Shown here: piece after piece, positions 18,090-61,196 of the stretch
How positions within the stretch are numbered: the stretch's first letter is position 1
How the letters are laid out: each line of letters begins with the position of its first letter
Assembly: GCA_938048185.1 (NCBI GenBank)
Contig: CALIVT010000001.1
Span: forward strand, 62,001 to 126,000
Direction of reading: 5' to 3'
DNA: 64,000 nt
Origin: an uncultured Arenicella sp.
Lineage (GTDB): Bacteria; Pseudomonadota; Gammaproteobacteria; Arenicellales; Arenicellaceae
Position numbers and translations under genes: made by a program
Notes under the pieces: model-generated
Seen by the model: the letters and a program-made list of their open reading frames with translations, nothing else
Told to the model about the DNA's origin: nothing
Databases searched by the model: none

Positions 18090-19964
18090 TTAAGATAACT
18101 CAGGCTTATCAATGAGTACCCCAATACTAACCTCAGTACCTTCTTGTGAACCATGCAAGCTCAACTCAAATTCGGCCTGATCGGCCCGGTATCGCATATT
18201 GGTCAGTCCTCGGCCGGATGTTCTGTTTTCTGGTAGTCCAACACCGTTATCTTTGATATAAATAAAAGCATAGTCTTTACCGTGGCGTTTTAACGGTGCG
18301 GTCGTGCTCAGGACAATGGTGTCGGCTTTGGCGTGTTTAATAACATTAGTGATGCACTCTTGCATGATACGTAACAAGTGAAGGGTTTTTTGCGGCCCAA
18401 GGTTCAGTGCTGGCGGCAAGTCAGACACTCGCCAATGTAACGATATGTTTTCGCTTTCTAAGCGCATTTGAATTCGATTTCTCAATAAGCCCAAGACTAC
18501 GTTTAAGTCATTATCAACTTCATCGAGTGAATCAATCATTAAACGTAAATCATCCAGCGCGGTGGTCAGTTCTTCGGCCAGTTCTTTATCTTCAGGGTAT
18601 TCTCGCTTTAGCCGACTTAAGGCGCCGATTAGGTTACTGCCAACGCCGTCGTGCATATCTCGCATTATTCGTTCACGCTCAGACACAAGCGCTTCGTTGC
18701 GCTCCTTTTCTCCAATCCTCTTATATGCCTGCTCAATTTTTTGTGATTTTTCGTTTATGCGTTTTTCGAGTGTTTGATTCAATTGCGCTGTCTCAGACAA
18801 TGCCATGATAAACCGCTGTATTAATACCAACCCAATAGCCGCAACTAATGGCGCAATGGCAAATTGAGTCATCATGCCGTTATAGTGAAATGCTAGGCCA
18901 TTAGTAAATAACCAGTCATGAATACCAAGCGTGATGATTGAGATATAACAAATTGCCAACGCAACCCCCTGTATCGATGGCATTAAAATGACTGATCGCA
19001 CCATCATCATCATTGGGTACAAACCAAATAGAATGACCAAGCCATTCCAGATAATTACATTAATTGAGTAATAGTTGCCCTCGGTGCCTAAAAAAACTAA
19101 AGACAACATGAGTAGTGCACCGCCAACAGAGAAAAGTGCCAACAGTTTCTCAACCCGCGGCCGTTTTTTATTTAGGTAGCGAAACGTGAATAATGAACCA
19201 CAGGCCACCATCATTCCTAATATGTAGCTAATACCTAAGTCCCACAGTTTATTTGGTAGTGGTATGTTCTGTATTAGAGTATGAACCACAAACAGTGTCA
19301 TGGAAAATGAAAAGGCCGCAAACCAAAAATACAAAGGCTCTTTACTAATGCGCGCGATTGCTAGCGTGAAGATACACAAAAACAAGCAAATAGATGCCGT
19401 CGCGTTAAGATAGGTTACACGTAGAAAATTTAGGCGAGCGTAACTGGGTTCGATGCTTGCCGACGGGCCGATATGAAATTGATTAATACGCCCCCATAGG
19501 TCTTGTGCTTCGAGTCTTAGCCAGATAGTGTTTTCACCTTGGTTCATAAAACTCTGGGGTACATTGTACAAAACAGGCCGATTCCAAAATCGCTTTAGCG
19601 GCTTGGCTGGTGATAAGTCACCCCCAACTTTAGCGCCATTAACGATTGCACCGATGGTCATGACATGACTAGGAATAAATAAAGACCAATCGGTATCAGG
19701 CTGCTTATCCAGCGTAAAGCTGGTTTTGTACCAAGCAACGCTCAGTGCATCATAGTGTTGGTCCCAAGAATGGGGTAGCGTAATTTCTTCACCGTTATCA
19801 GTAGGAAGTGTGTTGCTGTCAGTCGGATAAATACTTGCACGAGTGAAGGTAAACGAGTCTTCACCCAGATTCACATCATGTAATAAAAATAGGCTGGCGA
19901 GAATGGTCAAGCTGACCAATGCCACAATGAGCGCGATAACCGCTTTTGTAAATAAACTATTCAA
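18090..19964 (-). CDS. 7TM sensor histidine kinase (NarX/DesK class)
   Basis: Membrane sensor of 624 residues. It has an N-terminal helix, a periplasmic jelly-roll domain (about 40-180, of the 7TMR-DISM extracellular type), seven membrane helices (about 185-400), a coiled coil, and a HisKA_3 domain with phospho-acceptor His438 in ERERIMRDMHDGVGS. The ATPase domain follows, with the N box ECITNVIKHAKA and glycine boxes DNGVGLP and GRGLTNM. The response regulator gene ends two bases upstream, so the pair is one operon. The signal is unknown; the extracellular fold often binds carbohydrates. Confidence 0.92.
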   Translation of the reverse strand: MNSLFTKAVIALIVALVSLTILASLFLLHDVNLGEDSFTFTRASIYPTDSNTLPTDNGEEITLPHSWDQHYDALSVAWYKTSFTLDKQPDTDWSLFIPSHVMTIGAIVNGAKVGGDLSPAKPLKRFWNRPVLYNVPQSFMNQGENTIWLRLEAQDLWGRINQFHIGPSASIEPSYARLNFLRVTYLNATASICLFLCIFTLAIARISKEPLYFWFAAFSFSMTLFVVHTLIQNIPLPNKLWDLGISYILGMMVACGSLFTFRYLNKKRPRVEKLLALFSVGGALLMLSLVFLGTEGNYYSINVIIWNGLVILFGLYPMMMMVRSVILMPSIQGVALAICYISIITLGIHDWLFTNGLAFHYNGMMTQFAIAPLVAAIGLVLIQRFIMALSETAQLNQTLEKRINEKSQKIEQAYKRIGEKERNEALVSERERIMRDMHDGVGSNLIGALSRLKREYPEDKELAEELTTALDDLRLMIDSLDEVDNDLNVVLGLLRNRIQMRLESENISLHWRVSDLPPALNLGPQKTLHLLRIMQECITNVIKHAKADTIVLSTTAPLKRHGKDYAFIYIKDNGVGLPENRTSGRGLTNMRYRADQAEFELSLHGSQEGTEVSIGVLIDKPELS

Positions 19965-19966: not shown

Positions 19967-20611
19967 TTAAAGTTTAACCAAGCCCTGTTGCACAGCTTCA
20001 AACGCGGCTTCACTGCGCGAATTCACCGACATTTTTTCGTATATGTTTTGCACGTGTGAGCTAATAGTGTTCACCGAAATCTCCATATATTCAGCAATCT
20101 CCTTAAAGGTGAAACCCTTAACAATCATTTGCAATACCTCGATTTCACGCGCCGTAACGTCAATGGTTTCCGGTTCAGTCTCAGGGCTTTGAAAGCGCTT
20201 TAATAGGTGTCGAGCGATAGATGGACTAATGGGTGACTCGCCCGCCAACACGCTGCAGATAGCGTCAGCAATATCGGTATTTTGTCGCTCTTTTAACAAA
20301 TAACCCGTGGCGCCGGCTTCAATGGCTGAAATCACATTGTGGTCATCACCAAAGGCGGTAATTACCAGTACTTTGGGTTTACTTTTTAATTTTTGCAATT
20401 GCTTAATAAACTCAATGCCATTGCCGTCAGGCAAACCTAGATCCGCTAAAACGGCATCCACATTGGTATTGCTGTCTAAAAAACATCGAGCATCAGCTAA
20501 CGACGAACCGCTACCGACTAATTCTAAACGCCCGTCAGCCTCTACTGCTTCACATAGCTGTTTCAACGTTTGCGGGTGGTCTTCTAAAACGTAAATACGG
20601 CTGGCTGGCAT
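19967..20611 (-). CDS. LuxR/NarL-type response regulator
   Basis: Partner of the sensor kinase downstream. The receiver domain (residues 5-120) has the phospho-acceptor Asp57 in VLADLGLPDGNG. The C-terminal helix-turn-helix reads VTAREIEVLQMIVKG and FKEIAEYMEISVNTISSH. The ATG at 20611 is chosen over a TTG eight codons upstream. The gene is divergent from the exported-protein run starting at 20825, and the shared 210-bp gap has a near-perfect inverted repeat, so it may control that run. This is inference. Confidence 0.9.
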   Translation of the reverse strand: MPASRIYVLEDHPQTLKQLCEAVEADGRLELVGSGSSLADARCFLDSNTNVDAVLADLGLPDGNGIEFIKQLQKLKSKPKVLVITAFGDDHNVISAIEAGATGYLLKERQNTDIADAICSVLAGESPISPSIARHLLKRFQSPETEPETIDVTAREIEVLQMIVKGFTFKEIAEYMEISVNTISSHVQNIYEKMSVNSRSEAAFEAVQQGLVKL

Positions 20612-20685
20612 ATTAATTGAATGGCTAAGTAACAAGTTTTATTGGTTTGATTACATCCGTTGTACCACATATAAGCCAATGCCTT

Positions 20686-20707
20686 CTATGGTGTATTTAC
20701 ACTATAG
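20686..20707. promoter_or_regulatory. inverted repeat in divergent promoter region
   Basis: CTATGGTGTA and TACACTATAG are complementary except for one wobble position, with a two-base centre. It lies between the response regulator gene and the first gene of the exported-protein run, a natural place for a NarL-type operator. Confidence 0.4.
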
Positions 20708-20824
20708 GAAAAATATCCCACCGTCGTTAAAGTAAGTTTGGTACAGGTGAACTTAAAAAATCAACCCAGTTAGATAGTAGTAAACCACATTAAAAAACAA
20801 CACACTTATTTTCAATAACAAAAT

Positions 20825-22486
20825 ATGCAGCTACTCACACATACACGATTCTGTTTATGCGTCATCGGTTTTATTTTATCTTTAGCCGCACAAGCCCAAC
20901 AAGCTCCAGAAATAATAAAAATAAGCGGCGACATACAAGCGTTTGGGGATATCAGAAGTTCCAGATCCCAAATAAGCCCCAACGGGCAGTGGGTAGTGTT
21001 CATTGCCGATGCCGAACAAGATGAAAAAATAGAGCTCTACAGTGTGCCAATCGGCGGCGGCCCTAGAGTCAAGCTTAATAGTGCATTGCAGGCCGATGGC
21101 GATGTTACGTCTTTTTTTATCACGCCCGATAGCGCTCGTGTGGTGTTTATTGCCGACCGTCTGGTTGACAATAGATTTGAGCTCTTCTCGACCCCGATTC
21201 GTGGCGGCACAATTGCCCAGTTAAACAACAATTTAAGTACCACGCAAAGCGTCCAATCCGATATTAGCTTCGCCTATGGCCCAGCGCAGCAAACCGTATT
21301 GTATCGTGTGCAAAACCGGCCTAACCCGAACAGCGTAGAGGGCATTGAGACAGACTTATTCAGCGTTGACGCCAATGGTAATAATTTAACCCAACTGAAC
21401 CGGCCTGATCTACGCGCTAATCAGGCGGTGGTGCGACGCGTTGCGATCAGCCCCAACAACCGCTCGATTGCGTTTACCAGCACGTCTACCCGAGGTTCAA
21501 TTGCAGATGCTGAGCTGTTTATCACCGATATTGACGCCTCTTCACCGCCGATTCGAGTCAGCGCGCCGATTGGAGTTAGTAATGTTGGCCCAGTCAATAC
21601 ATTTTTTTCGAGGTATACGCCCGATGGGCAACGCATTCTGTACTTACAACAATTCAATAACCGAAGACAATTATTCAGCTTGCCAGCACAAGGTGGTACG
21701 CCTATTCGCCTGCAGCAGCTGGATCAAAACGTTGAAACCGCCTCAATTAGAATTGCTGCCAACAGCCAACGGGTAATCTACGCGCTTGGCTCAACTTTTG
21801 AAGCAGAACTTTACAGCGTACCAACCACTGGAGGCAGCCCTGTTTCTTTGGATACCACCAGTTTAACTGCGTCAATCACCTTTGTTAATAATGATCAGCA
21901 AGTGCTGTATCAGGTAGAAAATCCTGATGGATTGCGTTTGATCTCGGTGACTGGCGGCTCACCCACGGCAATAGATGGCCCTGGAGCGCTAGACGGTGAT
22001 GTTGGTTTCTTGAGCGGCCGCTCAAAAAATATAACGCCAGACCAAACCAATATTGTCTATCGTGCGCGGCGCAATATACCTAATGGGACTATTTTTGATT
22101 TGCGCAGTGTATCCAGCATGGGCGGCACGCCGCGAATATTAGAGCCCATGAATACGGCGCAATTTAGTATTACGCCAGACAGCAAACAGGTGATTTACAC
22201 AAGCCGAGATACAAGCAATGGCGGTGATATAAGAATGCTATTTGCCGTAGACGTGGCCGGCGGTGAGCCCAAAAACATAAGCGGCGAACTGCCGTTTATG
22301 AGCAGCGTTAGTGATTTTCAAATTAGCCCCGACAGCAGAACCGTGGTGTTTCGCGCTGACAAAGACATCTTTGATAAATTTGAACTGTTTGCCGTCACCT
22401 TACCACCCCTGTCTAACCCTGAGGACGAACAAATTTGCTTGCCGATAAAGGCTAAAAACAACCAGTTTGCCGTGGTGTGTTTATAG
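20825..22486 (+). CDS. exported TolB-like propeller protein with C-terminal hairpin tag
   Basis: A 553-residue exported protein with a Sec signal peptide ending near AAQAQ. The body is a series of repeats of about 45 residues with blades such as ISPNGQWVVFIADAEQDEKIELYSVP, ITPDSARVVFIAD and ISPDSRTVVFRAD, typical of PD40/TolB propellers. The last 20 residues are separate in character: after a Pro/Asp/Glu linker (PPLSNPEDEQ), the chain ends CLPIKAKNNQFAVVCL. This ending recurs in other proteins of the window and is duplicated almost exactly at 24197-24292. No membrane anchor follows, so the ending itself may act in localisation or assembly. Confidence 0.85.
   Translation: MQLLTHTRFCLCVIGFILSLAAQAQQAPEIIKISGDIQAFGDIRSSRSQISPNGQWVVFIADAEQDEKIELYSVPIGGGPRVKLNSALQADGDVTSFFITPDSARVVFIADRLVDNRFELFSTPIRGGTIAQLNNNLSTTQSVQSDISFAYGPAQQTVLYRVQNRPNPNSVEGIETDLFSVDANGNNLTQLNRPDLRANQAVVRRVAISPNNRSIAFTSTSTRGSIADAELFITDIDASSPPIRVSAPIGVSNVGPVNTFFSRYTPDGQRILYLQQFNNRRQLFSLPAQGGTPIRLQQLDQNVETASIRIAANSQRVIYALGSTFEAELYSVPTTGGSPVSLDTTSLTASITFVNNDQQVLYQVENPDGLRLISVTGGSPTAIDGPGALDGDVGFLSGRSKNITPDQTNIVYRARRNIPNGTIFDLRSVSSMGGTPRILEPMNTAQFSITPDSKQVIYTSRDTSNGGDIRMLFAVDVAGGEPKNISGELPFMSSVSDFQISPDSRTVVFRADKDIFDKFELFAVTLPPLSNPEDEQICLPIKAKNNQFAVVCL
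22391..22486 (+). repeat. 96-bp duplicated C-terminal cassette, copy 1
   Basis: This stretch encodes the last 31 residues of the propeller protein. Compared base by base with 24197-24292 it has about 91 of 96 identical positions, with the stop codon changed from TAG to TGA. Confidence 0.85.
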
Positions 22487-22515
22487 ACAGCAGTCCACAC
22501 ATAGGAGACCAAAAA

Positions 22516-22959
22516 ATGAAATTCACTTTTGCTATTTTCATGATTTTAATCATCAATTCAATATCTGCGAATGCACAAGAAGCTCAATGCCCCGAAGGCC
22601 AGCTTTACGGATGTGGAGCTTTTTATACGCAACTTTTTCCACCAATTACTCGAACTATTTGTGGTTGCTTCAACGAACCAGAGCAGCCAATTGATCGAGG
22701 TTCTAGGTCTTTAAAAAGTTGTAGCAATGAATGCCTGTTTGATGGGTTTCGCACAGACTCAGGTTGTAGTTGTTTGCCTGGCCCTATAGTTATTCCGACC
22801 AGAGAAACACCGGAATTTGAATTCAGTGAGTTTAAAGAGCTTCAAAAACTAAAGCAGAAATCCCCTGAGTTGTACGACATCTATATTGATACCCAAATAA
22901 ACGGCAATAGGTCAAAACCCCCGCTTACAATTGATGAGTTTAGAGCGTTATTCAAATAA
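22516..22959 (+). CDS. small cysteine-rich exported protein
   Basis: A 147-residue product. The ATG at 22516 follows an AGGAG site and gives a Sec signal peptide (residues 1-20, ending ISANA), so the longer frame from 22477 is not used. The mature N-terminal half has eight Cys (25, 33, 49, 51, 69, 73, 84, 86), enough for four disulfides, including two CxC pairs. The C-terminal half is charged and helical (FSEFKELQKLKQKSPEL). I do not recognise the family. It is the second gene of the rightward run. Confidence 0.8.
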   Translation: MKFTFAIFMILIINSISANAQEAQCPEGQLYGCGAFYTQLFPPITRTICGCFNEPEQPIDRGSRSLKSCSNECLFDGFRTDSGCSCLPGPIVIPTRETPEFEFSEFKELQKLKQKSPELYDIYIDTQINGNRSKPPLTIDEFRALFK

Positions 22960-22984
22960 TTGAAATTGTAGACAGAGAACCAAC

Positions 22985-23536
22985 ATGCATATTCGAACTA
23001 AGCTGACAACGCCACTATTAACTATGTTTCTGTTTTCTGGTCATACGGCTCTGGCTCATAACAAGGTGGTAGTGGTGCCTATGGCGGGCGACGATGTAAT
23101 TGTTGAAGTGCCTGCTGAACTAACGCCCACCACGCCCATTGCCAATGTGAACACTAATCAAAATGATTACACGATTAGCGCATTGACCGTCATCGATAAG
23201 ATCACCGGGCTTGAATGGCAACGCCAAGACGATGACGTGACTCGTAATTGGGATGATGCTTGGAATTATTGCGCAGGTTTAGACTTAGACAACCATCAAG
23301 ATTGGCGATTACCAGCCATCAAAGAGCTGCAATCCATTTTTGATTATGGGCAAGTAACGCCGCCCGCCATTGACCAAGTGGCATTCCCAAATACCGACTC
23401 TACTTTTTATTGGTCAGCAACTACTTTTTCAAACTCTGTTAGCTCTGCTTGGCTAATATTTTTTGGTGTTAACAGCTTAAACATTTTCGACGCAGGCAAG
23501 GGTAACGACAACTTATTCGTTCGTTGCGTCCGATGA
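22985..23536 (+). CDS. exported DUF1566 (Lcl C-terminal domain) protein
   Basis: Signal peptide to about residue 24 (TALA), then a mature start HNKVVVVPMAGDDV, nearly the same as that of the protein at 28416-29441. The DUF1566 domain covers about residues 70-183, with IDKITGLEWQRQDDD, WDDAWNYCAGL, DWRLPAIKELQSI, FYWSATTF and the final FVRCVR. This C-type-lectin-like fold is found in surface adhesins such as Legionella Lcl. The gene is the first of two DUF1566 genes in a row. Ligands are unknown. Confidence 0.88.
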   Translation: MHIRTKLTTPLLTMFLFSGHTALAHNKVVVVPMAGDDVIVEVPAELTPTTPIANVNTNQNDYTISALTVIDKITGLEWQRQDDDVTRNWDDAWNYCAGLDLDNHQDWRLPAIKELQSIFDYGQVTPPAIDQVAFPNTDSTFYWSATTFSNSVSSAWLIFFGVNSLNIFDAGKGNDNLFVRCVR

Positions 23537-23610
23537 AAGTTTAGTGGTCTCACAAGGTAAATATAACTTGTTGGTCTTTTCAGTGAATAGCTAACTGTTC
23601 AGAGAAACAT

Positions 23611-24075
23611 ATGAAAACAATAAAATTGACAACGAATTTCAAATCGCTTTTGCCAGCTCTCTTTTTGAATTTCACCATCCTCATTTTGTGGCCAGTCTAT
23701 GCGACAAATGACGTATGGGTCGACAATGGAGATGGCACGGTTAGCGATGTGGCAACAGGCCTAATTTGGGAACAAATACTTGACGGCTCTGCAAATAATT
23801 ACTCTGAAGCTATCACTTATTGTGACAATTTGAGCTTAGCGGGCTATACAGATTGGCGACTGCCTGATGTGAAAGAATTAACCAGCGTGGTTGATTATCG
23901 AAATTACCAGCCAGCAGTGGATGCAGGTGCTTTTCCTGCGACCAATAACATTGAATTTTGGTCTTCCTCAGAATTTGCCAGCGACACGAGTCAAGCATGG
24001 CGTGTAGATTTTGTAGATGGGCGGGTAATTGCCTCCAACAAAGCGGTCGATAACTTGGCACGCTGTGTTCGCTAA
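23611..24075 (+). CDS. exported DUF1566 protein, second copy
   Basis: A 154-residue protein with a signal peptide ending near WPVYA. The DUF1566 domain follows directly: VWVDNGDGTVSDVATGLIWEQ, YSEAITYCDNLSLAGY, DWRLPDVKELTSVVDYR, EFWSSSEFA and a final LARCVR. It shares the fold but only moderate identity with the gene just upstream, and lacks the VVVVPM start. Tandem placement suggests an old duplication. Confidence 0.88.
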   Translation: MKTIKLTTNFKSLLPALFLNFTILILWPVYATNDVWVDNGDGTVSDVATGLIWEQILDGSANNYSEAITYCDNLSLAGYTDWRLPDVKELTSVVDYRNYQPAVDAGAFPATNNIEFWSSSEFASDTSQAWRVDFVDGRVIASNKAVDNLARCVR

Positions 24076-24118
24076 AAACGCACTCTCTTAACCACTTTAA
24101 TTTTACTTAGCGATCACT

Positions 24119-24292
24119 ATGCCACCACTCAATAAATTGTCCAAAAGCTGTTTATCAGTCGCCGTTGTTAACGCGCTTGCCTCACTGCTGAGCGATGCCG
24201 TCACCTTACCACCCCTGCCTAACCCTGAGGACGAACAACTTTGCTTGCCGATAAAGGCTAAAAACAACAAGTTTGCCGTGGTGTGTTTATGA
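24119..24292 (+). CDS. 57-residue mini-protein: signal-like start plus hairpin tag
   Basis: A short complete frame from ATG at 24119 to TGA at 24290. Residues 1-26 (MPPLNKLSKSCLSVAVVNAL...) have the make-up of a signal peptide: basic, then hydrophobic, then Ala. The remaining 31 residues are almost identical to the C-terminus of the protein at 20825-22486 and end CLPIKAKNNKFAVVCL. The stop overlaps the ATG of the lipoprotein gene at 24289 by four bases. It may be a functional mini-protein that carries only the tag, or the remnant of a copied propeller gene with the middle deleted. No strong ribosome site precedes it. Confidence 0.5.
   Translation: MPPLNKLSKSCLSVAVVNALASLLSDAVTLPPLPNPEDEQLCLPIKAKNNKFAVVCL
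24197..24292 (+). repeat. 96-bp duplicated C-terminal cassette, copy 2
   Basis: Second copy of 22391-22486. Identity starts abruptly at GCCGTCACC and ends at the stop codon, so the copied unit corresponds exactly to the linker and tag, not to a larger block. Confidence 0.85.
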
Positions 24293-25224
24293 AAATTAAA
24301 TCAAAGGCCTCGGCTATTAAAAACGGGTTTCTAGTATTGGCCTTCATGGGTGGTAGTTTGCTGTGCGTGGCGTGTTCCAGTGAGGGTGACGAAGCCGCCG
24401 TGCGGCAAACACAAGCACAACAGCAAAGCACAGTGATTGCTACCAAAGATGGCATTCACCTAACACAGGCGCATTTAGATGCCGCGTTTAAAATTGATGT
24501 GGCGTTCAGCGCTAAATCGCATTTAACACCAGCTGAGAGAAAAGAATTAAAAGATCTGACCATTGCGGAGTTTCTACAAGACCCACAAGCCACCCTTGAT
24601 TCGCTCAATGAAATGATTGCTGAGGTCGACTCGATGGCAGAGGTCGAAACTCAAGCCAGCCTTCCAAAAACGACTGGCGTTTCAGCTGGGGGTTCAGGTG
24701 TCGTTTCTAATGGCAATGTAGCGCAAGGACATTTACAACTGCGTCAAGCACTCAGAGTAATGAATCAGAATAGCGGCACTAACGCACGATTTTCGGACAA
24801 TAGTTTTGGTGGAGTGAACGTGAATCAATTGCGAACCTTTATTGCTGGCTCGCAATTAAGTTCATCAAGCTATAACGCTCACGGCTCAGGGCAGCGTACC
24901 TTTACCATGTGCTCGAATGGAACCTTTCGCTATTACTATGGCTCGTTGTCCAGTGTGTCACCGTCAGTGGGTGGCGGTGAAGTAACAGGAATAAGCGAAG
25001 CCAGTGCTAGCGGCTATTGGGATGCCTATCAAGAAGGGGGCAATATTGCGCTGTTGCTATTCAGCAGCGATGTTGGGTTTCTTGATGAAAGTCTAAACAA
25101 TACTGGCTTGTTGCCAATGCCCATTGCGGCGTATCAACACGATGCCATCCAGCTTGGCCAGCGCGGGCAAGCTCCAACAGCAGATATGTTACTAGCAAGA
25201 ACAATGCATGCAGGGTGTAACTAA
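24289..25224 (+). CDS. putative lipoprotein of unknown function
   Basis: A 311-residue protein. The N-terminus is basic then hydrophobic, followed by LLCVACSS. Cys29 could be lipidated, though the residue at -3 is unusual. The middle is a charged helical region (LTPAERKELKDLTIAEFL) and a Gly/Ser-rich segment. The C-terminal part (TFTMCSNGTFRYYYGSLSSVS and SGYWDAYQEGGNIALLLFSSD) is beta-rich and resembles small beta-barrel or META-like repeats. I do not recognise the family. Its ATG overlaps the mini-gene's stop, so the two are coupled. Confidence 0.75.
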   Translation: MKIKSKASAIKNGFLVLAFMGGSLLCVACSSEGDEAAVRQTQAQQQSTVIATKDGIHLTQAHLDAAFKIDVAFSAKSHLTPAERKELKDLTIAEFLQDPQATLDSLNEMIAEVDSMAEVETQASLPKTTGVSAGGSGVVSNGNVAQGHLQLRQALRVMNQNSGTNARFSDNSFGGVNVNQLRTFIAGSQLSSSSYNAHGSGQRTFTMCSNGTFRYYYGSLSSVSPSVGGGEVTGISEASASGYWDAYQEGGNIALLLFSSDVGFLDESLNNTGLLPMPIAAYQHDAIQLGQRGQAPTADMLLARTMHAGCN

Positions 25225-25272
25225 CCCAAGCCGAAGTTTACTAAAAACATAACCTTACTTAAGGAGACAGAA

Positions 25273-27129
25273 ATGTGTCACACAACTAGAAGTTTTTTGG
25301 CTGTATTATTTTTACCGTTGCTATTTACAACATTCAACTTGAATGCCCAAGTTGATAAGAAAAAAATTATATTGCCCAAATTACAGACTACGGTTGGTCA
25401 AAATATACCCCTTGAGAATCTTAAAATAAAATCATCGATTCCAGTCGTCATAGAGCAACGCCCTTTACTTAAAGGTGAAAAGAAGATTGTTTTTAGTTTT
25501 CCTGACCGTACACGCGCCTCAATAAACTCTGTTGGAATGAGTGTGGAAGTGCTTTACGGCGATCGCAATTTTTTAGGAAACGGCGGTGGGAGCACCAAAG
25601 TAATTGAAGCTCAGCCGACTAACTGGGCAAATAGCTTTGAAGCAATTCTGCCTCAAGTCGATTCTAGTAACACTTTTAAATTTGAACCTGGTGAAACTGT
25701 TTATTTTTCTGTTCGATTAACATCAAGCGATGCTCAAAAAGTAGAACATACTGAAACTAATTCATTTGTTATGCCGGCTCCGATTATCGTCGGGATTATG
25801 GGAGATTCATTTGCAGCAGGTGAGGGTGCGCCGGAGCGAAAGTCATCTAACTGGCGAAATGTTCAATGGTCTGATGGGCGTTATAGTGACTCACATAACT
25901 CTACTAAATCGGGAGCAAGGGTAGGTTGTAATGAATTTGCGCAGGCTCACCCTGAACTTTGGGTTGTGTGCAAAAGTTGGGCTATTACTGGCGCTACTAT
26001 TCAAGACCAAAGTGATGAATTAGAAATTAGCGGTGGACTGACTTCGGACTACCAAGCCGATAGAGAACTGGTTCATGCTCTAAGCGAAAAGAAAGAAACG
26101 CAAGTAGATGGGCAGTTAGTACGTGCTGCAAACTGGCTTGATTCCCGTGGGTATGAAAACGTTGATGTGCTGGTATTTTCTTTGGGTGGTAATGATGCTG
26201 GTTTCGGAAAAATAATAAAGTGGTCGATATTATGGTCAGATGACTACGATGATTGGGTTGATTATGTTGATTCAGGATTAAGCATTACTAGTGAGAGAAT
26301 TCCTTTGATCGATTTTGCGATTCAAGAAGCCGTTAATCCCACTAATATGTTTTGGTTAAATTACCCTGACTTAACTCGGAATGAATTCGGCACGTTTTCA
26401 CAGTTGCCAGAACAAGGCAGCTCGTTCGATAGCAGTTTTAGGGAGAGAATTGCCCGTAACGGGGTAAGTGTTACCGAACTGAGGGGGGCTTCTAGAATTT
26501 TACGCAACCACATAAATCCAAAAATTGCAGAGTGGTGTGGCCAAATCAGCTACTGCTCTTTATTAGATGTACAAGAACGTGCTTTCAGAAACGGAATAGG
26601 CAACTCTAATGATCGCGATCGTTGGTTTAATACGTTTTTTGATTCGCAATACAGAGTTCAAGGAAGCTGGGATGGATCTGTTCATCCGAATGAAAAAGGA
26701 CACAAGGAAATTTATACACCCCTAATACGCGATGCAATTGAAGACCTATATTCTCCTCAGTCAGGTTCTTTCTATGCCAACATCAGGGCAGAGCGTGAAT
26801 CGGCACGTAATGAACGCCGGGCTGAGCGAGCGGCGCAATTACGAGAGGACATTGAAAGACGTTTTGGTGAAATAGCCACTCAATCGGGACGAACTAATAT
26901 CGGCAAATTGCAACGTGAGATTAAGCTTAAAGCCGATAAGATTGACCGTAGAACGTACGCGAAACTTTTGGCCAGAAAAAAAGCGTTACCGCCATTAGAA
27001 CTGTTTGATGAAAAAGGGCGAATGTTTGTTTCTAAAAAAGCATATAAAGAGCTGATTCAAGAATACAAAGATAAACCTGGTTTACTTAAAAAAATACAGA
27101 GCCAGATAGTTGTTTTAAAAGATAGGTAG
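25273..27129 (+). CDS. exported SGNH/GDSL-like esterase with coiled-coil tail
   Basis: A 618-residue protein with a Sec signal ending NLNAQ and a strong AGGAG ribosome site. A beta-rich N-terminal domain (30-165) precedes an SGNH hydrolase domain: block I IMGDSFAAGEG with nucleophile Ser179, the block III-like FSLGGNDAG (302-310) with Asn307, and block V SVHPNEKGH with His471. This suggests an esterase or lipase acting outside the cytoplasm. The last 120 residues are highly charged and helical (ESARNERRAERAAQLRED), probably a coiled coil. Its natural substrate may be acylated polysaccharide or lipid. Confidence 0.85.
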   Translation: MCHTTRSFLAVLFLPLLFTTFNLNAQVDKKKIILPKLQTTVGQNIPLENLKIKSSIPVVIEQRPLLKGEKKIVFSFPDRTRASINSVGMSVEVLYGDRNFLGNGGGSTKVIEAQPTNWANSFEAILPQVDSSNTFKFEPGETVYFSVRLTSSDAQKVEHTETNSFVMPAPIIVGIMGDSFAAGEGAPERKSSNWRNVQWSDGRYSDSHNSTKSGARVGCNEFAQAHPELWVVCKSWAITGATIQDQSDELEISGGLTSDYQADRELVHALSEKKETQVDGQLVRAANWLDSRGYENVDVLVFSLGGNDAGFGKIIKWSILWSDDYDDWVDYVDSGLSITSERIPLIDFAIQEAVNPTNMFWLNYPDLTRNEFGTFSQLPEQGSSFDSSFRERIARNGVSVTELRGASRILRNHINPKIAEWCGQISYCSLLDVQERAFRNGIGNSNDRDRWFNTFFDSQYRVQGSWDGSVHPNEKGHKEIYTPLIRDAIEDLYSPQSGSFYANIRAERESARNERRAERAAQLREDIERRFGEIATQSGRTNIGKLQREIKLKADKIDRRTYAKLLARKKALPPLELFDEKGRMFVSKKAYKELIQEYKDKPGLLKKIQSQIVVLKDR

Positions 27130-27186
27130 TGTCTGTTTAGGTCGCTTGAAGCATACACAGTAAACAATTTCTTAATAGGAGCCGTT

Positions 27187-28272
27187 ATGAAAAATAGTAT
27201 TCCCCTAAGAGGTATCGCAATGGTGTTTTTATTGTTGAGTATCTCGTTCACCACTTATGCGCAAAATAAAGGTTCGACTAAAGATACTGTTTTGGAGAAG
27301 CCCTTAAAGTTTGAACCAAAAAGAATCACCGAAAAAGAAATTAGTAAAAAACGAAACTCTAAAGTAACAATACCCGCCTCTCAAAGTAGTTCAAGAGATA
27401 AAGCTCAGCTTGGGCAATCAACGCTCGCAGCTGCGTTGCAAACACCATTTACAGCGGCGTTAACAGAGCTTGATAAATCCAACGACGCTATCCTTAAAGA
27501 ACTAATTGAGTTGGGTGTGTTGAACCGCATGAAAGTTGATTTTCGACGCATTGAAAAAGTTAAAAATGTGAAAACTCGTGGGCGTTTAATTAGTCAATAT
27601 CAAGCTCGATACAAAAATCAATATCAACAAGCCATCAAAAAATCGGGAGTAGACCTTGAAGGCATCGCTCAATTATTAAGTAAACAGGTCACAAAAGGCG
27701 AATTTGTTGTCGTAGATGGAATCTATATTCAGGGTAAGAGCAAAAAGAAAAACGCCGCTGATAACTTATCGTCTTCTAACAGCGTTACAAGGTCTGTCGT
27801 TATCGACGACGATGACGTAGCTTTTGTCAACCATGGTGACTGCGCGTTACTGGCTTCTTCAGGGTCTGGTTTTTCAAATGGCGAGATACGTTCAGGCGGT
27901 ATGGCCCTTTTAGCGGGAGGGTGTTTTAGAGAAGCCGAGGCGACTATATCTCTTAGTGATTATTCTGATTTCACAGTCAAAGCAAAATTCGATACGTTTA
28001 AATCAAGTTTTGCTGGTAGCATTTTAGGAGCAAGTGCTTCTCTTTCATCTAGTACTGTGAATATTTCATACTCTTATTGTTCGGTCATGGCTGCTGTACT
28101 TTGGATTGCCAGTTGTGAAGATGTAGAACAAAATTTGGAACTGACACTCGGTACTTCTTACCTTAGCCTGCTTGTTCGTAATCGAATACTCGGAGCTGTG
28201 GGTGTCTCAACTAGTATTGCGCGTGTTCGTTTAAAGAATAGCGAACTCATGCTGACTAACGAATCTATGTAG
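27187..28272 (+). CDS. exported protein of unknown function
   Basis: A 361-residue product with a signal peptide ending TTYAQ and an AGGAG site before the ATG. Residues 30-75 are basic and disordered. Residues 90-190 are helical with many Lys (MKVDFRRIEKVKNVKTRGRL). The C-terminal half is Ser/Gly-rich and beta-like with four Cys. No family is recognised. It follows the SGNH gene by 57 bp and has the same kind of leader, so it is likely co-transcribed and may be a partner. Confidence 0.75.
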   Translation: MKNSIPLRGIAMVFLLLSISFTTYAQNKGSTKDTVLEKPLKFEPKRITEKEISKKRNSKVTIPASQSSSRDKAQLGQSTLAAALQTPFTAALTELDKSNDAILKELIELGVLNRMKVDFRRIEKVKNVKTRGRLISQYQARYKNQYQQAIKKSGVDLEGIAQLLSKQVTKGEFVVVDGIYIQGKSKKKNAADNLSSSNSVTRSVVIDDDDVAFVNHGDCALLASSGSGFSNGEIRSGGMALLAGGCFREAEATISLSDYSDFTVKAKFDTFKSSFAGSILGASASLSSSTVNISYSYCSVMAAVLWIASCEDVEQNLELTLGTSYLSLLVRNRILGAVGVSTSIARVRLKNSELMLTNESM

Positions 28273-28381
28273 TATTTATGATTGAGTGGGGACAACTAGC
28301 TTATGGAGTACGCCGGTTAAAAAATATTCGTAAATTGGTATTTCTGATACCCAAACTCATCGTTTTGGTTTAGTTATTCCT

Positions 28382-28412
28382 AGTAAAAAAACAGAGTAAA
28401 AAAACAGAGTAA
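28382..28412 (+). repeat. tandem A-rich repeat in a gene leader
   Basis: The 13-bp unit AGTAAAAAAACAG occurs twice, followed by a partial third unit that runs into the ATG of the next gene. It fills the place of the ribosome site, so changes in A-tract length or copy number could alter translation. Confidence 0.6.
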
Positions 28413-28415
28413 AAA

Positions 28416-29441
28416 ATGAACAAAACCCAATTTAAGAGTCTCCTAAAAGTCTGGCGTTGTAATATTTTCTTCGTTTCATTGCTAATGAGTCAAGCAGCGA
28501 TGGCGCACAATAGAGTGGTCGTTATTCCTATGGCGGGCGATGATATTCCGGCTATTTCACATCCAGTGGCCGATACCTTCACAAACAGCATCGGCATGCA
28601 GTTTAATACCCTGCCCGCAGGCAGCTTTACCATGGGCAGCCCTGTTGGGGAGCCAGGTCGGTCATCAGATGAAATTGAGCATACAGTGACTTTAACTAAC
28701 TCCTTTGGAATGCAGACTACGGAAGTAACGAATGCGCAGTGGAATGATGTAATAGTAGATACTCTATTGGGTAGCAATCCGTCAACCAGTCACACTCAAA
28801 ACAGTTACCCGGTTGAAACCGTATCTTGGTATGACGCCATTTTTTTCGCCAATCGCTTATCGCTCGTTGAAGGTCGTAGTGCGTGTTATGCCACTAGTGG
28901 TGTCAGCGGCACGCCCGGCACCGGCTCTTTGGTCATTACTACGGTGAACCAAATTGCCAATTGCACGGGATATCGCCTACCGACCGAAGCGGAATGGGAA
29001 TATGCGGCGCGCGCGGGCACCACCAATGCTTACGCTAACCCAGTGGGTTTTGATAGCTCAGATACGGAAACTGGCAGCGGCTTCAATGGCAATCTGCATG
29101 CCATGGGTTGGTATTCCTACAACCGCGAGATGGAAAACGGCAATGGGGTAGCGGCTTACGAAGATGGCACTAAACCAGTGGCCAAGAAGCAGGCTAATGC
29201 CTGGGGTTTATACGATATGCACGGCAATGTATGGGAATGGAATTGGGATTGGTTTGCGGCCTATTCTGGTAGTGCCGAAACAGACCCGAGCGGGCCTGTG
29301 ACAGGCTCTGACCGCGTGATCCGCGGCAGCAGTTGGGCCTTCGGCGCGAGTAATGCGCGTTCGGCGGATCGTGGCAATACGTCGCCGAGCTTTCGCAACG
29401 ACTTCCTTGGGTTCCGGCTTGTTTTGCGCCAGGTTCAGTAA
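28416..29441 (+). CDS. exported SUMF1/formylglycine-generating-enzyme-like protein
   Basis: A 341-residue protein with a signal peptide ending near QAAMA and a mature start HNRVVVIPMAGDDI, the same element as in the DUF1566 protein at 22985. The rest is a SUMF1/FGE-sulfatase domain: FTMGSPVGEPGR, TTEVTNAQWND, YPVETVSWYDAIFFANRLS, YRLPTEAEWEYAARAGT, AWGLYDMHGNVWEWNWDW, VIRGSSWAFGA and the last GFRLVLR. True sulfatase activators have an active-site Cys pair near the C-terminus. That pair is not evident here, so a binding or structural role is more likely. Confidence 0.85.
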   Translation: MNKTQFKSLLKVWRCNIFFVSLLMSQAAMAHNRVVVIPMAGDDIPAISHPVADTFTNSIGMQFNTLPAGSFTMGSPVGEPGRSSDEIEHTVTLTNSFGMQTTEVTNAQWNDVIVDTLLGSNPSTSHTQNSYPVETVSWYDAIFFANRLSLVEGRSACYATSGVSGTPGTGSLVITTVNQIANCTGYRLPTEAEWEYAARAGTTNAYANPVGFDSSDTETGSGFNGNLHAMGWYSYNREMENGNGVAAYEDGTKPVAKKQANAWGLYDMHGNVWEWNWDWFAAYSGSAETDPSGPVTGSDRVIRGSSWAFGASNARSADRGNTSPSFRNDFLGFRLVLRQVQ

Positions 29442-30369: not shown

Positions 30370-30381
30370 CGTGGTGTTTTT

Positions 30382-30900: not shown

Positions 30901-30955
30901 ATTATTATTCCGTATTCGAATATGGAATATTGCACACCTTTAAGTATTAAGCAAA

Positions 30956-31138
30956 CTATTGAAAAGGATTGTCTTCAAGCTGACTAATAAGTCTGCCAAT
31001 CTCCCAGACGATGCCAAATTCTTGATATCGAGGTTGTCCTACGGCTTCTCCATTGTCGTCATTAATCCACTTTTCTCCGTCGAATTTAACTAGTTCAAGA
31101 ACGGGGCTTAGATCAACGATCTTTACGGGGACAGCCAT
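30956..31138 (-). CDS. possible 60-residue protein starting inside the spacer repeat
   Basis: The frame begins with ATG within the left end of spacer copy 2 (MAVPVKIVDLSPVLELVKFD...) and has good protein composition with Trp and charged residues. In copies 1 and 3 of the spacer the same ATG is followed by a one-base difference that closes the frame after seven or eight codons. Either this is a small gene whose 5' end became part of the spacer, or a chance frame. Confidence 0.4.
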   Translation of the reverse strand: MAVPVKIVDLSPVLELVKFDGEKWINDDNGEAVGQPRYQEFGIVWEIGRLISQLEDNPFQ

Positions 31139-31258: not shown

Positions 31259-31307
31259 GGCTATAAAAATTGGTTCTCAGGTACTAGGATCGAGTCTGTA
31301 TTATTGC

Positions 31308-33181: not shown

Positions 33182-33943
33182 CCAACAATATCGCTCGGAG
33201 TGGAGGCGGTGTGGCAATAGGCATAGCTAGCGCCTCTAACAACTTTCGTGAAACCGTAATCTCTGGAAATACCGCGGTTTTCAGTGCCGGCGGCGTCTTG
33301 ATGGGTTTTGCAGCGCCAGCAAATTTTAATAGATGTACTCTATCCAATAACATCGCCATATATGGCGGAGGCATTACCGGTGATGACATTACCATGACAA
33401 ATAGTACCATCTCAAAAAATACCGCAACCTCTCGCGGCAGCGTAATTTTTCATACTACCAACTTCATCGACAATTACTCAAAGCACCATTGCCGACAACG
33501 ATGGAAGTGCTGCGCTGCATTGGGGAGGAACCTCCATACCCTCGATCACGTTTAACTTCGAAGCAAATAACGTGGTTAGTAACAACGCGTTTGGTAATTG
33601 CAGTGCCGACAATACACTGCCCATCTCGTTTGGCGCGTTCAACTGGTTAGACGATGACACTTGCGGCACGATCAACTCGGGTGACCCAGGTTTGGGTGAA
33701 CTAGCCGATAACGGCGGTTTTACCGAAACGCATGCGCCTATACCGGGTTCGGGCCTAATCGGTGCCGGTTTACTCAGCGCTTGCAGCGCAGCACCTGTAA
33801 ATGGAGTTGACCAACGTGGGGAGCCGCGCGGCACCAGTAGTTGTTTTATTGGCTCGGTCGAAGGGGTTGTGGTGCCGCCTGACCCAACCTCCTTTTTTGT
33901 AATACCGCTGGCAAACGGTAAATCGGTGGTTATTTCATTGTGA
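33182..33943 (+). pseudogene. broken choice-of-anchor-Q beta-helix protein with hairpin tag
   Basis: The 5' end (signal peptide and CSLREA domain) is missing: the frame starts inside spacer copy 3. From 33182 the sequence encodes beta-helix turns (NNIARSGGGVAIG, ETVISGNTAVFSAGGV). Near 33470 it shifts frame: the coding continues as STIADNDGSAALHWGGTS in the next frame. The rest is a good anchor-Q end (GELADNGGFTETHAPIPGSG, GVDQRGEPRG) and the tag FFVIPLANGKSVVISL. Compared with the intact relatives at 39214 and 40887 it has lost about the first 250 residues or more. Confidence 0.85.
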
Positions 33944-39157: not shown

Positions 39158-39213
39158 GTGAACACACATCATCTGCGCACTTGAGCAAAACAAACGATAA
39201 CCACACCCCTGCC

Positions 39214-40827
39214 ATGCAACACAACCAACAACACTCTAGTCGCAAGAGGCCGCTTCGGCGTAAACCGATTGCGTTAATGGTGAAAGCCAGTTTGTTCGGC
39301 ATTGGCCTGGCGCACGCCAGCGCTCACGCCGCCACCTTGATTGTGACTTCAAACTCAGATAACGGCAGCGGTGGCTGCACGCTTCGAGAAGCGCTGAATT
39401 CGGTCAACGCTGGCGCAGCCATGGGCGGCTGCGTGGATATATTGCCACCGCCTCAACCACCGCTCACCAGCAATTTTGGTATTAACGACACGGTGATCAT
39501 TGGCAATACACTGGCCAGTGACACAATCACATTAAACGGTTCAGAACTGGAGGTCACCAGAGCGGTGACGGTTAATGGATATGAGGGGTTTACGATAACC
39601 GGTGATCCAGATTCTAGTGTCATTTCTGTTCAAGGCGCGGGATTTATTCTTAACAATACAATTATCACTGGTGGTTCTGCGGGTATCGTGGCTGATAGCA
39701 GCAATGTGCGTTTAAATAATTGTTTAATTTCTAATAACGAAGAGGCCGCTTACAACACTGGTGGAGGAATACGCTCTCGTGACGGCTCACTCACGATAGA
39801 GAATTCGTCTATCACAAATAATTCGGGGTACCTTGGTGGTGGACTTTACTCATATAATGACAGAGTTACCATAGTTGACTCTAGCATTGACAATAATATA
39901 GGTGTTAACACAGGTGGCATTAGTGCAGTTGTTGGAGCTCCACTAACGATTATCAACTCATCGGTTAGCGGCAACTCCGGTGTCGGCAGAGCGGGCGGGA
40001 TTTCTACGGGCAATCAAAACCTTATTTTAACAAATACAACAATAGCCAATAATGTTTCAAGTAACTTCGGCGCAGGCGGTATTCGAGTTAGCGGTGCGAC
40101 ACTTACGTTAAACGACTCGACTGTCTCCAACAATCGCACTTCGGCCACGTTAGAAGGCGGCGGGATCAGCTTACGATACGATGCAATTTTGGAGGGTGCG
40201 AATAGTACAATCAGCGGCAATACAAATGGGGGGTCTGGGGGCGGTATACGTGCTGATGGCTATGCCTCCACAGTAACAATAGATATCCGCAATTTCACTT
40301 TAGAGGGAAATAAGGCAGGAAGTTCTGGCGGTGGTGGAATTAGCGCGATCAACGCTAACGTAAGGCTGCGCAATACTACTGTCGCAAACAGCCAAGCCGA
40401 CGCTGCCTTAGGCGCGGGACTAAACTTAACTAACAGCGCATTACGCCTGGATAACTCGATAATCGCCAATTCAAATGGAGGTGGCGAATGTTTAGTCAAC
40501 GGCGGTTCAATCATTACCGACTCGGCGACCATTGTGCAAGACGGCTCGTGCAATAGCCAACGCGCAATTGACCCGCAACTGGGGCCGCTGGCCGATAACG
40601 GCGGCAGTACCCTAACCATGGCCTTAAAACCCAATAGCCCCGCGCGTAACACTGGCATTTTAGCGAGCTGCGAAGTGCGCGACCAACGTGGCCAGTTACG
40701 TGATAACGGCGACGGCGCTTGCGATGTTGGCGCCATTGAATTTAATCAAAATGATGATTTTGGTGAGCAAGATAGCTTTTTTGTGATTCCGCTCAAAAAC
40801 AATAAAGCCGTGGTGGTTCCGCTTTAA
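39214..40827 (+). CDS. CSLREA/choice-of-anchor-Q beta-helix surface protein with hairpin tag
   Basis: A 537-residue exported protein. A long basic N-terminus precedes the signal core and the cleavage region SAHAA. The ATG at 39214 is preferred to TTG at 39181. The CSLREA domain (GGCTLREALNSVNAG) is followed by a right-handed parallel beta-helix with many turns of the form I-x-N-S-x-[IV]-x-N-N, and by the anchor-Q end (GPLADNGGSTLTMALKPNSP, VRDQRGQLRDNG). The final residues are DSFFVIPLKNNKAVVVPL. No LPxTG, PEP-CTERM or GlyGly-CTERM motif is present; the hairpin tag takes that place. Probably an adhesin or glycan-binding protein. Confidence 0.88.
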   Translation: MQHNQQHSSRKRPLRRKPIALMVKASLFGIGLAHASAHAATLIVTSNSDNGSGGCTLREALNSVNAGAAMGGCVDILPPPQPPLTSNFGINDTVIIGNTLASDTITLNGSELEVTRAVTVNGYEGFTITGDPDSSVISVQGAGFILNNTIITGGSAGIVADSSNVRLNNCLISNNEEAAYNTGGGIRSRDGSLTIENSSITNNSGYLGGGLYSYNDRVTIVDSSIDNNIGVNTGGISAVVGAPLTIINSSVSGNSGVGRAGGISTGNQNLILTNTTIANNVSSNFGAGGIRVSGATLTLNDSTVSNNRTSATLEGGGISLRYDAILEGANSTISGNTNGGSGGGIRADGYASTVTIDIRNFTLEGNKAGSSGGGGISAINANVRLRNTTVANSQADAALGAGLNLTNSALRLDNSIIANSNGGGECLVNGGSIITDSATIVQDGSCNSQRAIDPQLGPLADNGGSTLTMALKPNSPARNTGILASCEVRDQRGQLRDNGDGACDVGAIEFNQNDDFGEQDSFFVIPLKNNKAVVVPL

Positions 40828-40886: not shown

Positions 40887-42725
40887 ATGCAGACTCATTC
40901 TAAGAAATCAAAAATCACTCTGGCAATACAAGCCAGCCTCATTGGCCTTAGTTTTCAGGCGCCACTCAATGCGGCTACCATTGAAGTCGAATCTGTTGGT
41001 GATAATAGCCTGAGTGATTGCACTTTGCGTGAGGCTCTGACCTCAATCAATGCAGGGAGCGGCATTGGCGGCTGCTCTAATAGTAGCCTCAATGATTTTG
41101 GTGTAGAAGACTCAGTGGTGTTCTCAAACAACTTAGCTAGCAATACCATTGTGCTTGCAAATGGCGATATTATTATTGGCCAAGACGTCTCTATTGAAGG
41201 CAATGCCAACAACATCGTCATTGACGCCGTCAATCAATCACAAATTTTCACGATTAATAATTCACTGGTATCGATTGATAGACTCACGCTGCGTAACGGC
41301 AACGCCACCGAGGCACCTTACCTAGGTGGCGCGATTGACGCCATCGGTAGCACATTGACAGTGACTGACTCAGTATTGTCAAACAACACTGCACAAAGTG
41401 GTGGGGCGATTAGTCTTAGAAGCAGTTCGCTGGTTCTGACCAACAGTGAATTAAGCTCTAACAGCGCAACTCAAGATGGTGGTGGCATTAGTTTGGCGGC
41501 CAATATTTCGGGTGGCAGCGAAGCAACCATTACTGGCGGAACGTTCTCCGATAATACCGCAGGCGGCTATGGTGGAGGGGCAATCAATGCCTACTACTAC
41601 GCTAGCTTGTCTATCACCGGCAGCACATTCAACCGAAACATAGCCACCGGCTCTGGCCTGGGTGGCAATGGCGGCGCGCTTCGCAGTGTGGCAAGCAAAG
41701 CGACCATTGCCGACAGTGTGTTTACTGCTAACTCAGCCACATCACGCGGTGGCGCTATAAACGCAGACAGCGGCAACTATAGTTACAATGCGCTTGATAT
41801 CAGCGGCACGACGCTCTCAAACAATAGCAGTTCGCAAGGCGGCGCGTTACGCATACGGCTAGAGAACGTGGCCGTTACGCTCGACGATATGACGATCAAT
41901 GATAATTCAGCGGCTTTCGCTGCTGCGATGTTTGCGTCTGACAGTGATATTGCAATCACAGACAGCGAGGTCTTTGACAACTCAGCATCCAACTTTGCTG
42001 GCGCACTGCAGTTTTCTGACACCACGGCAAGTATTGAACGAAGCAGTATCTACGGTAATCTTGCAAGCCGTGCTGGCGCTATTTTGTTGAGTTCGGGCAG
42101 CACACTCGACCTAACCGCAAGTACCATCAACGCAAACTCGGTGACCGAAGTTGCAGGTGGCTTATCGCTGGGCTTGGGTACAAGCGCAAACATTATTAAC
42201 AGCACAATATCGGGTAATTCGGCCACCGATACCGGTGGCGGAATTAATAGCGGCTTTGCCACTTTAACGTTAACAAACACCACGCTTGCTGATAACAGCG
42301 CGGCAACCGCTGCGGGCCTGAATAACGACAATAGCAACATCACTATTGTCAACAGTATTTTAGCTAACTCGTCGACAGGCTCAGATTGTGCTGGTACCGC
42401 CGTGGTATCTGATACGCAAAGCATTATCGAGCAAGATGACTGCTTGAGTGGCGCGCGCACGATTGACCCAGGCCTGTTGCCACTTGCTGACAACGGCGGT
42501 GCAACCAAAACCCATGCGCTAACGACCAACAGTGAAGCGCTTAACAGCGGCGACAACGCAAACTGTGAAGCGCTTGATCAGCGCGAAAAGCCGCGCAGCG
42601 ATGGCCGTTGTGATGTGGGGGCTTTCGAATTACAACCCGACGATGATGTAGACCCTGAAACTGACGACACCTCATTCATTGTAATACCACTGCCTAGCGG
42701 AAAAGCCGTTGTTATTCCAAACTGA
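40887..42725 (+). CDS. CSLREA/choice-of-anchor-Q beta-helix surface protein, paralogue
   Basis: A 612-residue paralogue of the upstream gene, 59 bp away. Signal peptide to about residue 30 (APLNAA), CSLREA domain SDCTLREALTSINAG, then about 20 beta-helix turns such as DSVLSNNTAQSGGAISLRSS, and the anchor-Q end (PLADNGGATKTHALTTNSE, CDVGAFELQ). The tail is acidic (PDDDVDPETDDT) and ends SFIVIPLPSGKAVVIPN, the tag with a terminal Asn instead of Leu. Both intact genes probably form one transcription unit. Confidence 0.88.
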   Translation: MQTHSKKSKITLAIQASLIGLSFQAPLNAATIEVESVGDNSLSDCTLREALTSINAGSGIGGCSNSSLNDFGVEDSVVFSNNLASNTIVLANGDIIIGQDVSIEGNANNIVIDAVNQSQIFTINNSLVSIDRLTLRNGNATEAPYLGGAIDAIGSTLTVTDSVLSNNTAQSGGAISLRSSSLVLTNSELSSNSATQDGGGISLAANISGGSEATITGGTFSDNTAGGYGGGAINAYYYASLSITGSTFNRNIATGSGLGGNGGALRSVASKATIADSVFTANSATSRGGAINADSGNYSYNALDISGTTLSNNSSSQGGALRIRLENVAVTLDDMTINDNSAAFAAAMFASDSDIAITDSEVFDNSASNFAGALQFSDTTASIERSSIYGNLASRAGAILLSSGSTLDLTASTINANSVTEVAGGLSLGLGTSANIINSTISGNSATDTGGGINSGFATLTLTNTTLADNSAATAAGLNNDNSNITIVNSILANSSTGSDCAGTAVVSDTQSIIEQDDCLSGARTIDPGLLPLADNGGATKTHALTTNSEALNSGDNANCEALDQREKPRSDGRCDVGAFELQPDDDVDPETDDTSFIVIPLPSGKAVVIPN

Positions 42726-60935: not shown

Positions 60936-61196
60936 TCAAAGACACACCACGGCAAGTTTGCCGTTCTTTGATTTGAGCGGCACGCATAGGTCGTCCGGTT
61001 TGGTGCATATGTGCTCGACCGCGTCGATATGGCTGTAGAAATTCCAGCTGTTGCCATCGTAGCGAAATTGAATATCGAACGTATCTACTGCCCCGGATAC
61101 TAAGCTGCGAATATCGATTTTTGCGTAGTCTCCGACGTCACCACTTGGGTTGCCATCGGTATTTACGAGTATTAGACGAAAGGTCGTTCCGTTCGA
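60936..61196 (-). pseudogene. C-terminal remnant of a hairpin-tag exported protein
   Basis: On the minus strand an open stretch of 86 codons without a start ends in DDLCVPLKSKNGKLAVVCL and a TGA stop at 60936. An in-frame stop at 61197 and the lack of any signal peptide show that the 5' part is gone. The preceding residues (AKIDIRSLVSGAVDTFDIQF and DGNSWNFYSHI) resemble a beta-sandwich. The tag is of the CLPIKAKNN type, although this remnant is 36 kb from the others. Confidence 0.7.

Follow-up and report, generated by a model that had tools for sequence, protein, structure and literature searches.

A stretch of 64,000 nucleotides from the genome of an uncultured Arenicella sp. (GenBank assembly GCA_938048185.1, contig CALIVT010000001.1, positions 62,001 to 126,000; hereafter the window) carries a run of genes for exported proteins, two of which end in a short sequence that recurs at the C-terminus of many other proteins of this genus. 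This 17-residue tail exists in two types: a CC type, LCxPIKxxNGxxAVxCL, with two invariant cysteines, and a Phe type, SFFVVPLxNGKxVIFxL, without cysteine, each followed by the stop codon. We propose, at a little short of an even chance, that the tail is a lineage-specific C-terminal sorting or attachment tag on exported proteins of Arenicella.

The smaller of the two tailed products of the run is a 57-amino-acid open reading frame (ORF), which consists of a signal-peptide-like start followed by a 95-bp copy (97% identity) of the end of the gene for a PD40 beta-propeller protein. The copied piece codes for VTLPPLPNPEDEQLCLPIKAKNNKFAVVCL and then a stop. While the original prediction had listed this ORF as an independent component, a mini-protein, it proved to be a duplicated tail-coding end. 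Its start, MPPLNKLSKSCLSVAVVNALASLLSDA, looks similar in wording to that of a protein with a choice-of-anchor Q (choice_anch_Q) domain from another Arenicella (L113: MPPLSTLNKTALTLAITQAVAMSSAQA; L and G numbers denote loci or proteins and genomes examined, respectively). Searching the source genome with the copied piece returned five further proteins with similar ends. In the window, the choice_anch_Q proteins carry the Phe version, SFFVIPLKNNKAVVVPL, immediately before the stop. The two versions can be aligned with hardly a gap and are connected by intermediates, for example SCFVVKAANGNVVTFCL, which is also terminal.

The tail is nearly restricted to the Arenicella lineage. A CC-type profile was built from 19 tail ends and its matches were counted at an expect value (E) of 0.1 or below. 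The source genome contained 7 matches, and all 18 Arenicella genomes together contained 146, with a best E per genome no higher than 3.1e-6. Elsewhere in the order, where 43 further genomes were searched, there were 4 matches in G028 and a single marginal one in each of three genomes. At E≤0.001, a joint profile of both types detected 5 of 370 genomes of the class, namely four Arenicella and G212, a member of another family. Moreover, a narrow pattern for the Phe version picked up 20 stretches in genome contigs, of which 7 were confirmed, six of these from uncultured Arenicella sp. The tail is also C-terminal in position: the stop codon follows it directly in 29 of the 30 fetched matches (38 were listed) and is one residue off in the remaining one. 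A viral origin was rejected, as none of 34 pattern matches in viral contigs was confirmed. In Pfam and NCBIfam scans no best-matching stretch fell on the tail, and a literature search found no title or abstract opening describing such a sequence.

Thirteen hand-chosen tails from different proteins share a mean identity of 0.39 over the 17 residues, compared with a mean of 0.09 and a maximum of 0.12 for shuffled sequences (2000 trials). At the shared residues of ten source-genome tails the codons agree in 124 of 298 comparisons, where 110.8 would be expected if they were independent given the codon usage of the window; the propeller/57-amino-acid pair, whose tails agree at 52 of 54 nucleotides, was left out of this comparison. 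Among ten GSDH relatives the conservation of the tail (0.46) is close to that of the enzyme domain (0.47), with a value of 0.36 for the preceding 40-residue linker (the cluster has 13 members; two tailed proteins missed by the regular expression and one short protein were not included). Because identity lies above that of the shuffles, the codons are near-independent and the tail is conserved like the GSDH domain, the tail is, as judged from these sequences, a shared homologous domain that arose neither by chance nor by recent copying.

At least nine types of carrier were found: PD40, choice_anch_Q, GSDH, Exo_endo_phos, Peptidase_S8, EPTP, DUF5122, FG-GAP_2 and TSP_3. In one set of tailed frames, 17 of 23 passed a signal-peptide score of 2.5, and the six that failed were cut, start-less, broken or short or, in one case (L127), simply scored low. 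The choice_anch_Q domain (NCBIfam) is present in 18/18 Arenicella genomes and, across the class, in 58 of 275. Twenty of the 30 fetched Arenicella choice_anch_Q loci end in the tail, no further than about 25 residues past a CDIGA-type domain end, and for nine, several of them internal domain copies, the motif used gave no assignment. In 27 further choice_anch_Q loci from the class, nine proteins finish with a hydrophobic, Arg/Lys-containing stretch that in most cases follows Gly/Ser; the rest comprise one tailed protein (from G212), four with other ends, four that run off the stretch and nine lacking the motif used. The tail thus appears to end proteins of a family that is often anchor-ended elsewhere, a positional parallel that is loose. 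This end position on choice_anch_Q proteins, together with the many types of carrier, is our main argument for a role in sorting or attachment, although it is not proof.

In the mechanism that we envisage, carriers would leave the cytoplasm through Sec and take up their fold in the periplasm. Their tail, in many cases preceded by a variable linker, would then form an exposed beta-hairpin, locked by a Cys-Cys pair in the CC type and packed by Phe in the Phe type; if the chain turns at the N-G or N-N pair, the two cysteines would come to lie opposite each other. A single dedicated receptor or sorting step would recognise the tail and deliver carriers to the cell surface or hold them there, so that the tail would do the job of GlyGly-CTERM-type anchors in other Gammaproteobacteria. 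Here the hairpin is a predicted fold, and we infer both the recognition of the tail and the surface destination of its carriers. The type II secretin GspD scored over cut-off in 15 of 18 Arenicella genomes, the source genome included, which allows surface export of the carriers but does not show it. Taken further, and with somewhat less confidence than the proposal of a tag as such, Arenicella would possess a sorting or attachment system of its own. Its helix-free, 17-residue beta-hairpin tag, in disulfide and Phe versions, would mark roughly 1-19 exported proteins per genome (counting the CC type alone) and be read by a putative receptor or enzyme, unlike the tripartite LPXTG, PEP-CTERM, GlyGly-CTERM and MYXO-CTERM signals.

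Several observations weigh against a sorting tag. In the AlphaFold model of a choice_anch_Q protein of the window (537 residues) the beta-helix is confident and the two tail strands have a predicted local distance difference test (pLDDT) score below 50, and the model of the propeller is poor (mean pLDDT 36), again with two terminal strands. No receptor or enzyme for the tail emerged: when 464 proteins, taken from the window and 55 fetched stretches, were clustered, no membrane protease recurred beside the tails; the neighbours that do recur are those of the GSDH gene (in up to 9 genomes), those of the nuclease gene (in 3 genomes) and regulators. Rhombosortase (TIGR03902) scored over cut-off in 3 of 18 Arenicella genomes, the source genome not being one of them, and was rejected as the reader of a tail that is found in 18/18. 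Export of the carriers was also less distinctive than it might appear: in a further fetched set 18 of 20 tailed proteins passed the signal-peptide score, yet so did 35 of 57 control ORFs, and the score is thus permissive. Not all carriers are mutually unrelated, since two of the five further tailed proteins of the source genome (L006 and L007) cluster together, and one Arenicella choice_anch_Q protein (L051) has another end and no tail. Outside the genus, an anchor-like end directly follows the choice_anch_Q domain only in L137, with 174-410 residues intervening in the other eight proteins. Because the direct anchor parallel outside Arenicella rests on this one locus, our confidence in a sorting tag, and in a sorting system peculiar to the genus, is slightly reduced. 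The boundaries of the distribution point the same way. G018, G019 and G020, from other genera of the same family, gave no match, no match and one marginal CC-type match, while the matches in G028, from another family and with three of the four listed on three contigs, look real. We also count G212 here; this assembly has 5% contamination and its tailed genes are confined to one 9-kb contig, which may be a stray Arenicella contig.

Instead of an address, the tail could be a structural cap or a self-association strand pair. As a small hairpin it would cover open beta edges or join tailed proteins to one another, and it would need no dedicated recognition machinery. This would suit the many carriers with beta-rich repeat folds (PD40, DUF5122, FG-GAP_2, GSDH and the parallel beta-helix), the two terminal strands predicted in both structural models and the lack of any machinery in the neighbour clustering. 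However, the tail also sits on non-propeller carriers (Exo_endo_phos, Peptidase_S8 and TSP_3), it is often preceded by a variable linker, and it hardly occurs beyond the genus even though 58 genomes of the class encode choice_anch_Q. We consider a cap rather unlikely, although well above negligible.

The run that holds the propeller and the 57-amino-acid ORF comprises nine rightward ORFs between 20825 and 29441, separated by short gaps and with Sec signal-peptide-like starts as judged by eye. The original prediction had described eight exported proteins here; their exported content and common direction were borne out, and the number was not. With a home-made signal-peptide score (pass at ≥2.8) applied to ORFs of the window, 8/8 run ORFs of at least 110 amino acids passed, compared with 14 of 44 other scored ORFs, and an older version of this score gave 3.27 for the 57-amino-acid ORF. 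The run is therefore unusual in its export signals, but the neighbourhood is itself export-rich. The lipoprotein-like protein has a non-canonical lipobox (CVAC), and G+C across the run is 0.41-0.46 per 2 kb, similar to the flanking DNA.

The divergent NarL-type response regulator and seven-transmembrane (7TM) sensor kinase that had been described across an inverted repeat are indeed present. In the kinase, matches to 7TMR-DISM_7TM and HisKA_3 fall just under their cut-offs. The inverted repeat pairs at 9 of 10 arm positions, and a pattern derived from it (up to 3 mismatches) has one match in the window and none in 100 shuffles. It lies 51-72 bp upstream of the first listed start of the regulator and 118-139 bp upstream of that of the propeller, and it overlaps a promoter-like pair on the regulator strand (20730-20701). 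Such pairs are no more frequent in the palindrome region than expected by chance (16 found, 16.7 expected).

From this arrangement it had been proposed that the run as a whole encodes a defined assembly, on the surface or secreted, that serves adhesion or polymer use and is switched via the palindrome by the two-component system next to it. The signal-peptide score of every run ORF of at least 110 amino acids, the short intergenic gaps and the genuine palindrome all favour such an assembly. Against it, the search in relatives, which covered the SGNH protein, the propeller and the kinase, found no conserved counterpart of any of the three in congeners. The SGNH protein occurs in 1 of the 100 genomes searched, the source genome alone (0/17 congeners), and a scan of genome contigs found no relative. 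For the propeller, 10 of 17 congeners gave matches, all partial and of the repeat type (27-56% identity), and for the kinase 3 of 17 did (28-31% identity). Thus for two of the nine ORFs (SGNH and propeller) and for the sensor kinase no conserved order in relatives was found, the outcome that the original prediction had itself named as speaking against it; moreover, one member of the run is a duplicated tail. We regard a dedicated assembly under direct sensory control as improbable. As far as the SGNH protein, the propeller and the kinase tell, the run appears to be a co-directional exported set and not a conserved machine.

Two further origins of the run were considered. A mobile origin was rejected because the SGNH protein has no match in phages or plasmids, the G+C content is like that of the surroundings, and the last 120 bases of the transfer-messenger RNA gene have no copy of 14 or more bases elsewhere in the window. 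The exported protein of unassigned family (27187-28272) has no match in plasmids (phages were not searched with this protein). The SUMF1-like and DUF1566 folds hinted at a diversity-generating retroelement; the best solved relative of the SUMF1-like protein (28416-29441) is Treponema denticola variable protein 1 (E 1.4e-32), which is the target of such an element. This candidate was also rejected, the sole strong repeat being the tail-coding one; reverse transcriptase was not searched for.

That the tail is a coding piece spreading by recombination, with little function of its own, would fit the copied gene end in the propeller/57-amino-acid pair, the short-frame tail matches that recur in congeners (10 inspected, 2 at contig ends) and the related proteins beginning MTQPRSTL or MTLPRNRL in L115 (G004) and in L120 and L186 (G005), which lie within kilobases of tail matches and which look like repetitive extragenic palindromic (REP)-associated transposases, but the near-independent codons at the shared residues of source-genome tails and the GSDH relatives, which keep the tail as well as the enzyme domain, argue for selection on the protein and not for recent spread, making this account highly improbable.

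Some additional features of the carriers and their surroundings were observed (see the table for coordinates). A tailed GSDH gene at L128 (G000:C9:108000-120000) has a conserved neighbourhood; it is preceded by two genes whose relatives recur in 9 and 8 genomes, and its neighbours look like DUF1501 and DUF1800 genes. A second shared piece, [AQ][HQ]N[KRQ]VVV[VI]P[ML]AGDD, directly follows the signal peptide in a DUF1566 protein and in the SUMF1-like protein of the run (73% DNA identity between 23040-23095 and 28489-28544) and is also present on three proteins from fetched congener loci (L111, L120 and L125). In sequence it resembles the second strand of the tail (NGKVVVIPL), of which it seems to be the counterpart at the mature N-terminus. 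Two AbiEii-like genes and an AbiEi antitoxin gene lie on the minus strand directly after the run (29686-33018). The choice_anch_Q gene at 33136-33943, which lies beside type IV toxin-antitoxin genes, is split across two overlapping frames. The 86-codon frame at 60936-61196 is probably the relic of a tailed gene.

Table. Tails, run genes and regulatory features in the window (positions within the 64,000-nucleotide stretch)
Feature	Position	Strand	Basis or remark
CC-type tail QICLPIKAKNNQFAVVCL, end of propeller	22430..22483	+	CC-type and joint profile searches
95-bp tail-coding repeat, copy 1	22390..22484	+	repeat family D1
95-bp tail-coding repeat, copy 2, 97% identical	24196..24290	+	repeat family D1
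choice_anch_Q protein, Phe-type tail at end (tail 40771-40824)	39181..40827	+	domain and joint profile searches
choice_anch_Q protein, Phe-type tail at end (match 42669-42719)	40887..42725	+	domain and joint profile searches
Phe-type tail, intact, on choice_anch_Q frame without 5' part	33887..33940	+	domain and joint profile searches
CC-type tail on 86-codon frame without start codon (frame 60936-61196)	60939..60992	-	joint profile
PD40 beta-propeller protein, 553 amino acids, signal peptide, CC-type tail at end	20825..22486	+	Pfam
Cys-rich exported protein	22516..22959	+	begins at ATG, with GTG 22477 as the listed frame start; no Pfam match over cut-off
Lcl_C (DUF1566) protein, with HNKVVVVPMAGDD following the signal peptide	22985..23536	+	Pfam
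Second Lcl_C (DUF1566) protein	23611..24075	+	Pfam
57-amino-acid ORF, signal-peptide-like start and CC-type tail	24119..24292	+	no Pfam match over cut-off
Lipoprotein-like protein	24289..25224	+	ATG overlaps stop of 57-amino-acid ORF; no Pfam match over cut-off
SGNH/GDSL hydrolase-like exported protein	25273..27129	+	Pfam GDSL
Exported protein, family unassigned	27187..28272	+	no Pfam match over cut-off
FGE-sulfatase/SUMF1-like exported protein, with HNRVVVIPMAGDD as N-terminal piece	28416..29441	+	Pfam FGE-sulfatase
Response regulator, Response_reg and GerE	19967..20635	-	Pfam
Sensor kinase with 7TM-DISM-like region	18090..19964	-	Pfam HATPase_c over cut-off
22-bp inverted repeat between regulator and run	20686..20707	.	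arms CTATGGTGTA-TT-TACACTATAG

Should the tail prove to be an address label, it would mark a large share of what a marine genus exports all at once, and the sorting route implied would do without the transmembrane helix that belongs to the LPXTG, PEP-CTERM, GlyGly-CTERM and MYXO-CTERM signals. A list of hypothetical exported proteins would become one testable set, for which the 57-amino-acid ORF would offer a natural minimal carrier.

The outer-membrane beta-signal read by the beta-barrel assembly machinery (BAM) lies at the C-terminus, has hydrophobic residues in alternation and closes with a hydrophobic one, and the Arenicella tail shares these properties. However, the carriers of the tail look like soluble domains, and a second strand and a turn are conserved in it. 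PEP-CTERM signals differ in their PEP motif, transmembrane helix and basic end, all of which are missing from the Arenicella tails (exosortase was not searched for). In the account of MYXO-CTERM and myxosortase (PMC11980579), the signal is likewise a lineage-wide C-terminal tag and has an invariant cysteine in its motif, as the CC type has its invariant cysteines. As given there, that signal has a tripartite build that includes a transmembrane helix and an Arg-rich end, whereas the Arenicella tail has neither and its Phe type has no cysteine.

The GlyGly-CTERM signals processed by rhombosortase, as described by Haft and Varghese (2011, PMC3237569), whose logic we follow here, are short C-terminal homology regions on otherwise unrelated exported proteins, many per genome; their carriers include subtilases and nucleases, and their distribution is sporadic. 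In all of this they resemble the Arenicella tail, but the tail has no counterpart of their Gly/Ser motif, transmembrane helix and basic cluster. Thus a shared C-terminal region on unrelated proteins is present in Arenicella, while the tripartite motif is absent and rhombosortase accompanies the tail in only 3 of 18 genomes; because the tripartite architecture is missing, we do not file the tail under GlyGly-CTERM. A similar relation holds for the endonuclease/exonuclease/phosphatase (EEP) nuclease ExeM of Shewanella oneidensis, whose end is a GG motif, a hydrophobic stretch and RRRR (PMC6085458). There, too, a C-terminal signal follows an Exo_endo_phos domain, as in the Arenicella proteins L169 and L173, which carry the 17-residue tail in place of the GG/hydrophobic/RRRR end. 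The Arenicella tail may nevertheless work like a GlyGly-CTERM-type signal.

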